Under the pieces are notes generated by a model that made no database searches, was not told the DNA's origin, and saw only the letters and a list, made by a program, of their open reading frames with translations. A stretch of 64,000 bases of DNA from Bryobacter sp. CoA8 C33 (GTDB taxonomy: Bacteria > Acidobacteriota > Terriglobia > Bryobacterales > Bryobacteraceae): the NCBI GenBank assembly GCA_019931185.1, contig JAINDK010000019.1:1-64000 (forward strand), in the 5' to 3' direction. Position numbers and translations under genes: made by a program. This document shows, piece by piece, positions 33,880 to 56,673 of the stretch (its first letter is position 1; every line of letters begins with the position of its first letter).

Positions 33880-35673
33880 ATGCCCATCATTCAGGAAGAA
33901 CGCCCCTACGAGATTCTCGTCCCGCATCTGGGGAAAGACAAATTTGTTTTTCTCAGCATGGACGGCGCCGAATACGTCTCCAAACCCTTTGAATACACGA
34001 TTATTGTAGCCACCGAGGAAAAGGAAGTCGACGATGAGGATCTTCTGCGCAAGACCGTTCTGGTGACTCTTCGGAGAGATGATTTCCCGCCCCGGCTTCT
34101 GCATGGCGTCATTCGCAAGGCCAAGCTGCTCGGGGTCGAAGAGGGGCTCAGCACGATTTACCACTGGCAGATGGCCGTCGTACCCGCACTGTGGTTTCTC
34201 AACCTCGAGCAGGATTGCCGTCATTTCATCAACAAGACCGCCCTCGATATCGTCAAGGAAATTCTGGCCGAAGAAAAAATAAAATTTGCGGTGAAGAATG
34301 TCGGGACCCTACCGATACGCGAGTTTACGGTGCAGTACCGGGAGTCGACCTTCAACTTCGTCTCGCGCCTGCTGGAGGAAGAGGGAATTTTTTACTGGTT
34401 TGAGCATTCCGATTCGGCACACACCATGATGCTTGCGGACACGAATCAGGCGACGCGGAATTGTCCGCACGTCAACAAGCTGCCGTTTGCCCGAGGAACG
34501 TCCAACCGCTCCACCGGTGTGATCGACACGCTGGAGCGGGAAACAAGCGTGCATACGGGAAAGATCACGTTCCAGGACTATAACTTTGAGAAAAGCGGAG
34601 TGAACCTGCAAGCCTCCTCGAAGGGCTCGCAATTGAATGAGTTCTACGAGTATCCTGGCCGCTATTCGGCCAAACAAGATGGGGAACGATTCGTGAAGCT
34701 GCGGCTCGAAGAACAGGAAGCCCGCTTGCGGACGATTCAATCGCACACAATTTCGACGATGCTCCTGGCGGGCTTCCGGTTTCAGCTCGAGGATCACTTC
34801 GAGGCCAAAGCCAATACTAGTTACGTTGTGCTGGGGATCAGCTTTGCCTGTCAGCAAAATCTGGTTCCAACAGAAGGAGTTAACGGGACGATGGCTTCGT
34901 TCTACTTCAGCGCCATCCCTTTCAACGTGCCCTACCGGCCTCCTCTCATTCATCCGAAGCCGATTATCCACGGAGTCCAGACAGCGATTGTGGTAGGCCC
35001 GGAAGGCAGCGAAATCCATTGCGACAAATTTGGCCGGGTCAAGATTCAATTTCACTGGGACCGCAAGAGTAAGAAAGACGACAACTCCTCTTGGTGGGTT
35101 CGCGTCTCGAGCAGTTGGGCCGGAGGCAACTGGGGCCAGATCTCGATTCCGCGTATCGGCCAGGAAGTGATTGTCTCGTTTCTCGAAGGGGACCCAGACC
35201 GTCCGATCATCGTCGGCCGGGTGTACAACGATCAGCATATGCCGCCGTATTCCCTGCCCGATAACAAGACACAATCGGGAATCAAATCCCGTTCCTCCAC
35301 CGGCGGTGGAGGCAGTGACTTCAATGAATTCCGTTTTGAGGACAAGAAAGGCAGTGAAGAGATCCATCTGCATGCGCAGAAGGATTTCAATGTTGTTGTT
35401 GAGAACAAGCAAACCGTGACGGTGCAAAAATCCGATCAGATCACGAAGATCGAGAGTGGTAACCGGAGCATTACAGTCAGCAAGGGCAATAATTCCCTGG
35501 AGGCCACAGCCGGCAAGATCGCCGAGAAGGCAGCGCAGGAAATCAAGATGGAATGTGGCGGATCGAAGATCATCCTGACTCCAGCCTCAATCAAGCTCGA
35601 AATTGGCGGCTCCAAGATCGAAATGCTTCCTGCCATGATCACGATCAAGGCGCCGATGATCATGCAGAAGTGA
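33880..35673 (+). CDS. vgrG: Type VI secretion spike protein VgrG
   Basis: A 597-residue VgrG (TssI), the trimeric spike that tips the Hcp tube. The gp27-like part (residues 1-~380) includes REFTVQYRESTFNFVSRLLEEEGIFYWFEH; the gp5-like OB domain has GRVKIQFHWDR and WVRVSSSWAGGNWG; the C-terminal needle ends in a repetitive beta-prism (KIILTPASIKLEIGGSKIEM). No extra C-terminal domain follows, so it is not a fused-effector VgrG. No PAAR gene is seen next to it. The protein gene after it begins 22 bases downstream. Confidence 0.96.
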   Translation: MPIIQEERPYEILVPHLGKDKFVFLSMDGAEYVSKPFEYTIIVATEEKEVDDEDLLRKTVLVTLRRDDFPPRLLHGVIRKAKLLGVEEGLSTIYHWQMAVVPALWFLNLEQDCRHFINKTALDIVKEILAEEKIKFAVKNVGTLPIREFTVQYRESTFNFVSRLLEEEGIFYWFEHSDSAHTMMLADTNQATRNCPHVNKLPFARGTSNRSTGVIDTLERETSVHTGKITFQDYNFEKSGVNLQASSKGSQLNEFYEYPGRYSAKQDGERFVKLRLEEQEARLRTIQSHTISTMLLAGFRFQLEDHFEAKANTSYVVLGISFACQQNLVPTEGVNGTMASFYFSAIPFNVPYRPPLIHPKPIIHGVQTAIVVGPEGSEIHCDKFGRVKIQFHWDRKSKKDDNSSWWVRVSSSWAGGNWGQISIPRIGQEVIVSFLEGDPDRPIIVGRVYNDQHMPPYSLPDNKTQSGIKSRSSTGGGGSDFNEFRFEDKKGSEEIHLHAQKDFNVVVENKQTVTVQKSDQITKIESGNRSITVSKGNNSLEATAGKIAEKAAQEIKMECGGSKIILTPASIKLEIGGSKIEMLPAMITIKAPMIMQK

Positions 35674-37405: not shown

Positions 37406-37434
37406 TTGACACGCGGCTCGGTCTCGGCTATATT
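37406..37434 (+). promoter_or_regulatory. Strong sigma-70-type promoter of rpsA
   Basis: TTGACA at 37406-37411, a 17-base spacer and TATATT at 37429-37434 make a near-consensus promoter. Transcription would start near 37441, giving a leader of about 167 bases before rpsA. Confidence 0.8.
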
Positions 37435-37440
37435 CCTAAG

Positions 37441-37607
37441 GTACTGTAGTTTCAACGGGTTGTCGGGCAATAAGAGGCGTAGTCAAAAAACAGGTCCGCC
37501 TGATTTGACTTCCAGACTATCGGGGAAGCGCCTCGTAGCCAGTTTCCTCCTCCCACACCTGTTATCAAATCGATCCGATTCTACAGTCGTGCAATGGAGA
37601 CTCGGCA
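37441..37607 (+). promoter_or_regulatory. Structured 5' leader of rpsA, candidate cis-regulatory RNA
   Basis: Four exactly complementary segment pairs are properly nested in the leader: ACTGTAG 37443-37449 with CTACAGT 37581-37587; GAGGCG 37474-37479 with CGCCTC 37529-37534; AGTCAAA 37481-37487 with TTTGACT 37504-37510; and CAGG 37491-37494 with CCTG 37499-37502 around a TCCG loop. The outer helix ends 8 bases before the GGAG at 37596-37599. A pyrimidine run (TTTCCTCCTCCC, 37543-37554) could instead pair with that GGAG. Ribosomal protein S1 controls its own mRNA in E. coli, so self-regulation is plausible; the pairing itself is only read from sequence. Confidence 0.6.
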
Positions 37608-39416
37608 ATGTCGAACTTGTCCGATGAGCGGACGCCCCAGGCGCCCCTCGAACCACAACAGCCCGACGGGGATGAGGCCCAGCACGGTATGCCGGGCGTT
37701 CCCGTAGCGGGGGTTGAAGACGGTGAGCTTGGCGGCGAAGAAAACTACGAGCAAATGCTCGCCGACTATGACCAGACGGACCATTCACAAGACGGCGATG
37801 TCCTCGTGGGCCATGTGCTTACGGTCAGCGAAAGTCTGGTTATTGTGGATATCGGTCAGAAAACCGAAGGCTCGGTTCCGCGGGACCACTTTGCACAGGA
37901 GATCAAGCCGGGAGATGAAGTTGAAGTTGTTATCGACCGCCCGGGAACCAGTCCGGAAGGCTTTCTTTACCTTTCTCACGAAAAGGTAAGGAGGCTCCGC
38001 CATTGGGATGTTCTCGAACAGGCCATGAACGAGGGTTACCTGATTTCGGGCCATGTTCTGGCGAAGGTCAAGGGAGGCCTGAGCGTTGATGTGGGTGTTC
38101 GCGCCTTTATGCCCGCCAGCCAGATCGACCTGCGTCCCACCCATAATCTGGATTCCTTCGTGGGCCAGGACATTCCCGTCCGCATTCTCAAGCTGAACCG
38201 CCGCAAAGGTAACGCCGTCGTTTCCCGCCGCGCCGCGATTGAAGAAGAAGCCCTCGCCAAGCGAAGTGCGGCGATGGAGAACATTTTCGACGGGGCCGTT
38301 CTAGAAGGCGTTATCAAGAATCTGACTGATTACGGCGCCTTCGTGGATCTTGGCGGGATTGACGGACTTCTGCACATCTCGGACATGAGCTACGGCCGTG
38401 TGACTCACCCGGCTGATGTCGTCGCGAGCGGTCAACCCGTCACCGTTCGCGTTCTTCGCTTCGACCGTGATAAGGGCCGCATCTCACTTGGGATGAAACA
38501 ACTGTACGCCGACCCTTGGGAAACGGCTGTGGAGCGCTTCCCCCTCGGTTCGCGCATCTCCGGCCGTGTTGTTAGCGTCACCGACTACGGCGCGTTCGTT
38601 GAGATCGAACCAGGCGTGGAGGGATTGATTCACATCTCGGAAATGACTTGGTCCCGCCGCATGAAGCATCCGGGGAAAGTTGTCAAAACAGGAGTGACCA
38701 TCGAAGCAATTGTCCTCGACATCCGCCCGCAGGACAAGCGCGTCTCCCTTGGACTGAAGCAACTGGAAGCCGACCCTTGGACGACACTGGGGGAGCGCTA
38801 CGCGGTCGGCAGCGTCGTTGAAGGTCGTGTCCGCAAGCTCACCGACTTCGGCGCCTTCATCGAAATTGAGGAAGGCATTGACGGTCTCGTCCACGTCAGT
38901 GACATGTCCTGGACGAAACACATCAAGCACCCCTCGGAATTGCTGAAGAAGGGGCAAATGGTGCAGGCCGCGATTCTGCAAATCGACTCGGGTAACCGTC
39001 GCCTTTCCCTCGGTATCAAGCAGTTGGAGCCCGATGCCTGGGAAACTTTCTTCAACTCGCACATGGTGAATGAACTGGTCAGGGGCGTGGTTGTCCGGAG
39101 CGCGAATTTCGGCGTTTTTGTAGAGTTGGCTCCCGGTGTCGAAGGCTTGTGCCACAATTCAGAAATACCCGGAGTGGAAGGCCGTGGCCGCGGGGGAGAG
39201 AGTGCAACTCAGCCCCTACCCCTTGGTTCCATGCATGAGTTCAAAATTATCCGCATGAATGAGGCCGAAAAGAAAATCGGTCTCAGTATGAAAGCCGTCG
39301 GCGAGGAGAAAGAACGCTCACGCCTCAGAGGCTACCAACAACAAGCCGAAGCAGCAAGTCTCGGCTTCGATGCCGGCGGCGGCGGCGCGCCAGACAACAA
39401 TGGGGAGGAAGGCTAA
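37608..39416 (+). CDS. rpsA: 30S ribosomal protein S1
   Basis: A 602-residue S1 with six S1 RNA-binding repeats. The first two are the ribosome-binding types (VLVGHVLTVSESLVIVDIG; LISGHVLAKVKGGLSVDVG). The next three carry the GAF(V/I)-(D/E) and HISDM/HISEM/HVSDM pattern. The last (ELVRGVVVRSANFGVFVELA) ends near residue 530. The N-terminal ~60 residues are an acidic extension (GEENYEQMLADYDQTD) and the C-terminus is Gly-rich. GGAG sits 8 bases before the ATG. It is followed 6 bases later by an HU/IHF gene, the order also known from E. coli rpsA-ihfB. Confidence 0.96.
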   Translation: MSNLSDERTPQAPLEPQQPDGDEAQHGMPGVPVAGVEDGELGGEENYEQMLADYDQTDHSQDGDVLVGHVLTVSESLVIVDIGQKTEGSVPRDHFAQEIKPGDEVEVVIDRPGTSPEGFLYLSHEKVRRLRHWDVLEQAMNEGYLISGHVLAKVKGGLSVDVGVRAFMPASQIDLRPTHNLDSFVGQDIPVRILKLNRRKGNAVVSRRAAIEEEALAKRSAAMENIFDGAVLEGVIKNLTDYGAFVDLGGIDGLLHISDMSYGRVTHPADVVASGQPVTVRVLRFDRDKGRISLGMKQLYADPWETAVERFPLGSRISGRVVSVTDYGAFVEIEPGVEGLIHISEMTWSRRMKHPGKVVKTGVTIEAIVLDIRPQDKRVSLGLKQLEADPWTTLGERYAVGSVVEGRVRKLTDFGAFIEIEEGIDGLVHVSDMSWTKHIKHPSELLKKGQMVQAAILQIDSGNRRLSLGIKQLEPDAWETFFNSHMVNELVRGVVVRSANFGVFVELAPGVEGLCHNSEIPGVEGRGRGGESATQPLPLGSMHEFKIIRMNEAEKKIGLSMKAVGEEKERSRLRGYQQQAEAASLGFDAGGGGAPDNNGEEG

Positions 39417-39422
39417 AAGCCA

Positions 39423-39737
39423 ATGACAAAGGCTGAATTGATCGAAGAAGTTTCGCGCGTGGTGGAAATGACCCGAAAGGACTCCGAGATCATTGTCGAA
39501 GCAATATTCGATAGTGTTGTCAGAAGCCTCAAAGCCGGGGAGAAAATCGAGATCCGCGGATTCGGCAGTTTCCGTACGCGGCAACGCCAGTCCCGCATCG
39601 GGCGCAACCCGAAGACGGGCGCTCGTGTCGAGGTGCCCTCCAAGCGCATCCCTTACTTCAAACCCAGCAAGGAACTCAAGGATCTCGTCAACACTGGCGA
39701 GCAAATGCCTCTGCCCCCACCGCCAGCCGAACTCTGA
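39423..39737 (+). CDS. HU/IHF-family DNA-binding protein
   Basis: A 104-residue nucleoid protein. The family pattern is complete: MTKAELIEEVSR start, the saddle motif IEIRGFGSFRTRQRQSRIGRNPKTG, and the arm ending VPSKRIPYFKPSKELK. The RNPKTG segment carries the DNA-intercalating proline. It resembles IHF-beta in its place behind rpsA, though sequence alone does not separate IHF from HU here. The stop codon overlaps the ATG of the HIT gene by one base. Confidence 0.92.
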   Translation: MTKAELIEEVSRVVEMTRKDSEIIVEAIFDSVVRSLKAGEKIEIRGFGSFRTRQRQSRIGRNPKTGARVEVPSKRIPYFKPSKELKDLVNTGEQMPLPPPPAEL

Positions 39738-40246
39738 TGGACCATCTTTGGAGTCCTTGGCGTTACCGCTATGTAACGGCAGGTCAAGAGCCCAAACCGG
39801 AGTGTGTTTTCTGCGATAAATGGAAGGCCTCGCCGAAAACCGACGAGGCTCATCTGGTCTTATTCCGCGGACGGTCAAGCTATGGACTGCTGAATCTTTA
39901 CCCTTATACAAACGGGCATCTCATGGTCGTTCCCGCCCGCCATGTGGCACGCATCGAAGATCTTCCCGAAGTGGAGTGGCTCGAGCTAATGCGCTATGCC
40001 CGATTGGCGGAAAAAAATCTACGGGCCGTGTACGGTCCAGACGGACTGAATCTTGGCTTCAATATTGGCAAGGCAGCTGGAGCGGGCATTGCGGGTCACC
40101 TTCATTTGCACGCTCTGCCGCGCTGGCAAGGGGACGCCAACTTTCTGACGGTCATCGGGGAAACGCGTGTCCACCCGGAGGCTCTTCCAGAAAGCTGGCG
40201 CAAACTCAGAGCCTGTTCATGGGTTCCTACTGGCCCAGAATTGTAA
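39737..40246 (+). CDS. HIT-family nucleotide hydrolase/transferase
   Basis: A 169-residue HIT protein. The active-site triad HLHLH is in GHLHLHALPRW, preceded by YTNGHLMVVPARHV; the start MDHLWSPWRYRYV and the nearby CVFC metal-type pair are typical of the AP4A phosphorylase-like branch. It would cleave dinucleoside polyphosphates or related nucleotides. It is the third gene of an rpsA-HU-HIT set and ends convergently, overlapping the subtilase gene by 20 bases. Confidence 0.92.
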   Translation: MDHLWSPWRYRYVTAGQEPKPECVFCDKWKASPKTDEAHLVLFRGRSSYGLLNLYPYTNGHLMVVPARHVARIEDLPEVEWLELMRYARLAEKNLRAVYGPDGLNLGFNIGKAAGAGIAGHLHLHALPRWQGDANFLTVIGETRVHPEALPESWRKLRACSWVPTGPEL

Positions 40247-56318: not shown

Positions 56319-56673
56319 GGGGGCGTAACGGATTCGACGGGATGGATGGTTTCATTCGAGGCGTGTCGAGCTCCAGGCTCTCGTAAAACGACTGGAAAAA
56401 CACAATTGCCAACACGCAATTTGCTTACGCTGCTTAATTCTTAAGTAGCCGCCCGGGCAGACAGGTCCGTGGGTTTGTCCAAGGGCGTCATTTCACGGAA
56501 TTGGGGCAAGGCTTCTGTCCGGAGCCAAAGCCCTGAAATCAATCGGGCTAGGCTCTTGCCCGTTTTGCCGTTTCTTGAGGGGGGGAGCCGAATACCCAAC
56601 AGAACGGATACACACGTAGGCTTGGGTGGGGCTGCCATTTCGGACGTGGGTTCAACTCCCACCGCCTCCACCA
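56319..56673 (+). ncRNA. ssrA: Transfer-messenger RNA (tmRNA)
   Basis: The 5' end GGGGGCGTAACGGATTCGAC (56319-56338) is the tmRNA signature, and the 3' end GGTTCAACTCCCACCGCCTCC then ACCA supplies the tRNA-like half. The acceptor stem pairs GGGGGC with GCCTCC. The tag frame starts at GCC 56408 and reads A-N-T-Q-F-A-Y-A-A before TAA at 56435-56437; the hydrophobic AYAA end suits ClpXP-type recognition. It rescues stalled ribosomes with SmpB. The length, 355 bases, is normal for one-piece tmRNA. Confidence 0.96.

Follow-up and report, generated by a model that had tools for sequence, protein, structure and literature searches.

A long-range stem in the rpsA leader of a Bryobacter genome and its relatives: a candidate cis-regulatory RNA

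In Bryobacter sp. CoA8 C33 the gene for ribosomal protein S1, rpsA, is preceded by a leader containing nested inverted repeats, which raises the question of whether this part of the mRNA folds into a structure maintained by selection and what such a structure may do. The window considered here is the whole stretch of DNA analysed, 64,000 nucleotides of contig JAINDK010000019.1. That the leader structure is real can be held with high confidence; that, as an overall reading, it is a structured rpsA leader whose long-range stem acts in cis on translation initiation is about evenly balanced.

The rpsA locus and the stem in its leader

The rpsA operon starts from a sigma-70-type promoter (Table 1) whose -35/-10 region is kept across 35 aligned rpsA promoters; judging from the position of the -10 box, the transcript would start near 37440-37442. 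The product of the DNABII gene that follows rpsA has NF001222 as the best of seven families, with 110.8 bits, missing the curated IHF-beta cut-off of 115 bits, in comparison to 99.4 bits for IHF-alpha and 66.5 for HU-beta. This IHF-beta-like gene adjoins rpsA in all 5 genomes checked and presumably forms one operon with it; each of the 5 genomes examined carries three DNABII genes, one of them beside rpsA in 5/5. The same genome encodes a second S1-like protein (G000:C47:23958-25409, a frame of ~580 aa, 40% identical to the rpsA product of the window), and a comparable second match is listed for most of the 61 genomes searched. Elsewhere in the window are a tmRNA gene (56319-56673, + strand; 181 bits, RF00023 matched full-length) and a 597-aa frame (33880-35673, + strand) which, judged from its sequence, we take to resemble a VgrG-type spike protein.

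Table 1. Features of the rpsA locus, with positions in the window
Feature	Position	Strand	Remarks
Sigma-70-type promoter, rpsA operon	37406..37434	+	TTGACA 37406-37411, 17-nt spacer, TATATT 37429-37434; 11/12 consensus bases
5' strand of long-range stem, conserved transcript 5' end	37440..37467	+	blast block, alignment, model R1
Outer helix	ACTGTAG 37443-37449 / CTACAGT 37581-37587	+	exact 7 bp; 3' arm ends 8 nt before GGAG (gap 37588-37595)
Candidate IHF site TTTCAACGGGTTG	37450..37462	+	one mismatch from consensus WATCAANNNNTTR; just downstream of -10 box
Second stem part, 5' side	37452..37467 (37452-37460, 37462-37463, 37465-37467)	+	minimum-energy and genus consensus folds
Inner helix	GAGGCG 37474-37479 / CGCCTC 37529-37534	+	not retained as such in genus
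Inner helix	AGTCAAA 37481-37487 / TTTGACT 37504-37510	+	not retained as such in genus
Inner helix	CAGG 37491-37494 / CCTG 37499-37502	+	not retained as such in genus
Second stem part, 3' side	37552..37578 (37552-37556, 37557-37563, 37577-37578)	+	minimum-energy and genus consensus folds
Shine-Dalgarno (SD) GGAG	37596..37599	+	read from sequence; invariant in 6/6 genus members
rpsA, ribosomal protein S1, 602 aa	37608..39416	+	NCBIfam NF004952, 641 bits vs cut-off 524
IHF-beta-like DNABII gene	39423..39737	+	6 nt 3' of rpsA; NF001222
HIT-family gene	39737-40246		downstream of IHF-beta-like gene

A preliminary description of the leader had named four nested pairs of exactly complementary segments, and all of them are present. 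As the best nested chain of four exact helices they add up to 24 bp, which 9/400 dinucleotide shuffles attain; the folding energy is ordinary for 37420-37620 (z -0.83), and for 37441-37596 it is at z -1.59, with 16/200 shuffles equally or more stable. The proposal that these pairs belong to one conserved RNA structure held for the outer helix, of which 6 or 7 of the 7 pairs are kept in 6/6 genus members, and not for the three inner helices as a shared element, which the five other genus members lack or show only in broken form: the GAGGCG helix retains 0-4 of its 6 pairs there, and three of the five have only gaps at the two innermost helices. On the genus alignment the structure originally drawn is 81.0% paired, with 4 pairs changed on both sides (6/500 shuffles), a count which for the inner helices depends on two or three gapped rows and is equivocal, making no clean case against them. 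The suggested switch, in which a pyrimidine run would alternatively cover the GGAG, is unsupported and was discarded: CTCC occurs in the leaders of only 2/6 genus members.

The stem to which the outer helix belongs is longer and joins the initial ~28 nt of the rpsA transcript to the sequence preceding the SD. In the window, 20.3 pairs are expected between nucleotides 1-28 of the transcript and the 45 nt immediately 5' of the SD, in comparison to 4.5 (sd 4.6) in shuffled sequences, and 0/200 shuffles reach the observed value. One minimum-energy model adds to the outer helix 14 pairs that had been overlooked (37452-37453/37577-37578, 37454-37460/37557-37563, 37462-37463/37555-37556, and 37465-37467/37552-37554), the 3' side of this second part being interrupted by an unpaired or locally paired stretch. 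On the genus alignment RNAalifold likewise joins the 5' block to the sequence before the SD; there, 92.0% of the cells of the stem pair, versus 31.9-48.9% in slid versions, and 89.7% of those of the second part. The window's genus is among the strongest for this 5'-3' pairing; its five other members reach 18.1-21.2 expected pairs, values attained by 1, 0, 0, 0, and 0 of 100 shuffles. The six genus members alone contain 2 pairs changed on both sides, which is not significant (93/500 shuffles reach that number).

Conservation and pairing across the family

A blast search of the leader against 237 genomes of the family, which probably is Bryobacteraceae, found two conserved ends, from the -10 box to about +28 and, within the genus, the ~50 nt directly upstream of the start codon; the middle was not found, and the sequence and length of the leader interior vary freely. 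The first conserved block reads TATATTTCTGAAGTACTGATCTnTCAACGGnTTGTCGG in 35 aligned rpsA genes. R1, a sequence-only model of this promoter-proximal block, has matches at E<=0.1 in 189/237 family genomes, in 127 of the 148 good ones, and in 68/76 genera, mostly once per genome, and 100/100 fetched matches are followed by rpsA on the same strand. Among 200 genomes sampled evenly from the class, the best R1 match outside the family has an E value of 5e-4. The locus set retained 131 of 137 loci, six being left out for promoters that were not recognised; start codons and SDs were picked by sequence rules in which pairing was not used, and an alignment made for viewing only (A3) holds 45 of 50 genus representatives, without five whose chosen start or element looked wrong.

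Pairing between the two ends exceeds chance in many genera as well as in the window. When the first 30 nt, a segment taken from the transcript only, were paired with a 60-nt segment whose 3' end lies 6 nt upstream of the start codon, the mean duplex z was -1.37 (se 0.23) over 46 genera and 102 leaders, with 15/46 genera below -2, 7 below -3, and 0 above 2; the controls gave +0.30 (0.17, 37 genera) for the preceding 60 nt, -0.14 (0.12, 46) for coding sequence, and 0.02 (0.20, 24) for sequence upstream of the promoter. The partition function, computed on 133 distinct leaders of 147 from 56 genera, yields 11.8 pairs between nucleotides 1-28 and the 45 nt immediately 5' of the SD, versus 6.2 in shuffled sequences; in 11/56 genera no shuffle reaches the observed value, and the mean rank fraction is <=0.12 in 27/56. 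About half of the 56 genera thus show the stem clearly, whereas 16 do not (rank fraction >0.5, e.g., g5, g71, g82, and g84).

The 5' ends also fit the 3' end of their own genus better than those of others. Against GC-matched 3' ends of other genera the z value is -1.04 (0.18) over 51 genera, 8 being below -2 and 0 above 2, and the two halves of the 5' strand, tested separately, give -0.48 (0.18) and -1.03 (0.20). Exact complements of a genus's own 6-nt pre-SD core sum to 7.4 genera versus 1.65 when shuffled (sd 0.97, max 4.8, 200 rounds), at a rate of 0.149 compared with 0.028 for complements of other variants; CAACGG/CCGUUG, CAAUGG/CCAUUG (g13), and CAAGGG/CCCUUG (g10) are examples. Mismatches in the arms are G-U rather than A-C by 21 to 3, and the coding control is reversed, 5 to 12. 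Since the 5' ends fit their own partners best and G-U mismatches outnumber A-C ones, the pairing under selection is that of the RNA, and the covariation-type comparison proposed for the leader turned out positive for the stem closed by the outer helix. An inverted repeat at the DNA level, with two operators, was rejected, as G-U exceeds A-C at all six settings tried (G-U/A-C 3/0, 19/11, 3/1, 25/11, 14/1, and 21/3; coding controls for four of the six 0/1, 8/23, 6/11, and 5/12). Two smaller structures were also set aside: a local CAA-N4-UUG hairpin in the 5' element, which is 92.4% paired with 0 double-sided changes and scores identical to shuffles, and structure inside the promoter-proximal block alone, for which RNAalifold gives 0 pairs.

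Probably some of the genera without the stem have wrong start codons, but not all. In g25 the nine leaders folded measure only ~36-57 nt from transcript start to start codon and have no leader structure (z -0.58 to +1.54). Eight g25 loci (L104, L106, L118, L125, L133, L136, L145, and L168) have rpsA leaders of only about 36-39 nt, in which the conserved 5' element runs directly into the start region. In g44 the conserved leader sequence is lost and 6/12 folded leaders have a minimum free energy z < -2; these stable leaders are compact hairpins closing just before the SD, and the 5'-3' pairing score of the genus is unremarkable (0.37). Outside the family, the stem is present in a genome from a sister family of the same order (19.2 pairs vs 5.6, 3/100 shuffles) and absent from a second leader, from another family of the class (68/100 shuffles).

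Possible roles of the stem and of its conserved 5' strand

The sequence of the 5' strand is kept more strictly than base pairing would demand; such conservation is not predicted by a pure helix and counts against a reading by the stem alone. This conservation, and the fit of the strand to the IHF consensus, had escaped the preliminary description, and both would be accommodated if the sequence were primarily an IHF-type DNA site over the transcription start, at which the IHF-beta-like product would occlude the -10/start region and so repress the rpsA-ihfB operon that encodes it. Judged from sequence, this is a possible but not a likely explanation; it is compatible with the RNA stem, which in that case would come second or add another layer. 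Enteric bacteria transcribe ihfB together with rpsA, and their IHF regulates its own synthesis, according to the available part of PMC8942017, from which the consensus WATCAANNNNTTR is also taken, and the IHF-beta-like gene after rpsA makes an autoregulatory DNA site plausible here. Among 116 distinct elements 46 fit this consensus perfectly in register and 47 with one mismatch, most of them gathered with a model of the same sequence, so that the fit describes the element and not its frequency; as background, 4/464 downstream 45-nt windows reach <=1 mismatch on either strand. Moreover, hardly any variation is seen in the C, A, and T of TCAA or in the TT, even in places where the partner strand has changed, and a fit with <=1 mismatch is kept in 9/14 genera without the stem, although this is rarer than in stem-bearing genera (20/25). 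Several observations weigh on the other side: the candidate site of the window itself has one mismatch, 23/116 elements have two or more, and only 54 of the 116 have A at consensus position 2; the rpsA promoters of g44 are without a candidate site, though rpsA and the IHF-like gene are adjacent in those compared; the neighbouring protein scores just under the curated IHF-beta cut-off; no candidate site is marked upstream of the second DNABII gene in 5/5 genomes; and the long-range pairing would have to be explained separately. For the third DNABII gene, one of four genomes has a candidate site marked upstream, at L204 (G000:C20), where a perfect consensus, AATCAAGTAATTA, lies just upstream of the gene; it is unmarked in the three relatives shown. 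The arrangement described for enteric ihfB in the available part of PMC8942017 shares with the present one the position of ihfB downstream of rpsA, the co-transcription (here presumed), and the consensus (here as a candidate match), whereas the candidate site of the present leader lies across the transcript start of rpsA, the upstream gene, and coincides with the RNA stem.

A structural rather than regulatory stem, shielding an abundant mRNA from decay that depends on the 5' end while leaving the SD free, is a comparably tentative alternative. In the window the stem begins at most a few nt from the inferred transcript start and leaves 8 nt between its end and the GGAG, and the free variation of the leader interior in sequence and length also suits protection; on the other hand, g25 has short leaders without the stem, and plain protection of the 5' end does not require a conserved sequence. 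Autocontrol of the gammaproteobacterial type, in which free S1 competes with S1-bearing 30S subunits at a start region without a real SD, concerns the same gene and likewise a structured rpsA mRNA leader upstream of the S1 coding region (PMC10931766, available part). It is nevertheless very unlikely, being disfavoured because it requires a weak SD (PMC10931766, same part) and the leader has GGAG, found in the window and in 117/147 leaders, a share inflated by the choice of start codons partly by SD. The present leader differs further in its canonical SD, in belonging to another phylum, and in matching no Rfam family, and, as far as the fold is described in the available part of that source, its long-range stem from the 5' end to the pre-SD segment sets it apart from the enteric one. 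Least probable of all is a boxA antitermination signal in the conserved 5' sequence. GATCTTT is common to the 5' element and to the rRNA-leader sequence GATCTTTGACAA of the same genomes; however, the CUUU core, the critical part of boxA, is not kept, with CTAT, CTCT, AGTTT, and others occurring, the bases that follow differ, and a C stands after the core in 115/116 elements, and boxA was rejected for lack of the conserved core. In the rRNA leaders themselves (L082-L090, upstream of 16S rRNA) the boxA-like sequence of the GATCTTTGACAA type comes before a conserved TCTGGTTGGACGC, to which GCGTCCAAC, located downstream of 16S, is complementary. Transcription attenuation was rejected as well, as no terminator-like site was found.

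For the structured leader acting in cis, the proposed mechanism starts from the long-range stem between the first ~28 nt and the sequence lying 4-10 nt upstream of the SD, which holds the 5' end of the mRNA next to the ribosome entry site, with the variable interior looped out; if a factor or the 30S subunit opens this closing stem or makes it more stable, access to the SD may change, and the leader would thereby act on the initiation of rpsA translation and on mRNA stability. Given that the structure is real, a regulatory role of this kind is somewhat favoured. No ligand is known for the stem; the likeliest factor by analogy would be S1, because it is the only ribosomal protein among the products of the adjacent genes examined, and as the ligand S1 is a conceivable, rather doubtful candidate. 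It is improbable that one 28-nt sequence serves both as the DNA operator by which an IHF-type protein represses its own operon and as the RNA 5' strand of a pre-SD lock by which S1 or the ribosome adjusts translation.

Known leaders and significance for the family

No Rfam family matches the leader, and among the loci of 20 relatives Rfam finds two tRNAs only and no leader family. Table 1 of Eckert and Weinberg 2020 (PMC7247131), as available, lists 20 leaders and no S1 leader; the terms 'rpsA', 'bS1', and 'Acidobacteri' are absent from the available main text of that paper, as are 'rpsA' and 'ribosomal protein S1' from that of Weinberg 2010 (PMC2864571), and full-text searches of open-licence papers turned up no S1 leader for Acidobacteriota. 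With the ribosomal leaders in the available part of PMC7247131 the present element has in common that a conserved RNA, confined to a lineage, precedes the gene of a ribosomal protein and is supported by covariation; the general features of such leaders, a 5' UTR with a conserved RNA fold ahead of a ribosomal protein gene (16/56 genera negative) and a consistent position, upstream of rpsA in 100/100 fetched R1 matches, are found here too.

The control of S1 synthesis outside gammaproteobacteria is little described in the open-licence literature searched, and Acidobacteriota are a phylum with few characterised leaders; in this setting, a leader found across the family, with its 5' end locked to the sequence before the SD, is a defined, mutable element for tests. 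If the IHF-type site is real, the old link between S1 and IHF in gene order becomes a testable feedback. Should the dual element be true, it would be the first described S1-mRNA leader element outside gammaproteobacteria, and its feedback through both DNA and RNA would tie nucleoid architecture to translation capacity.
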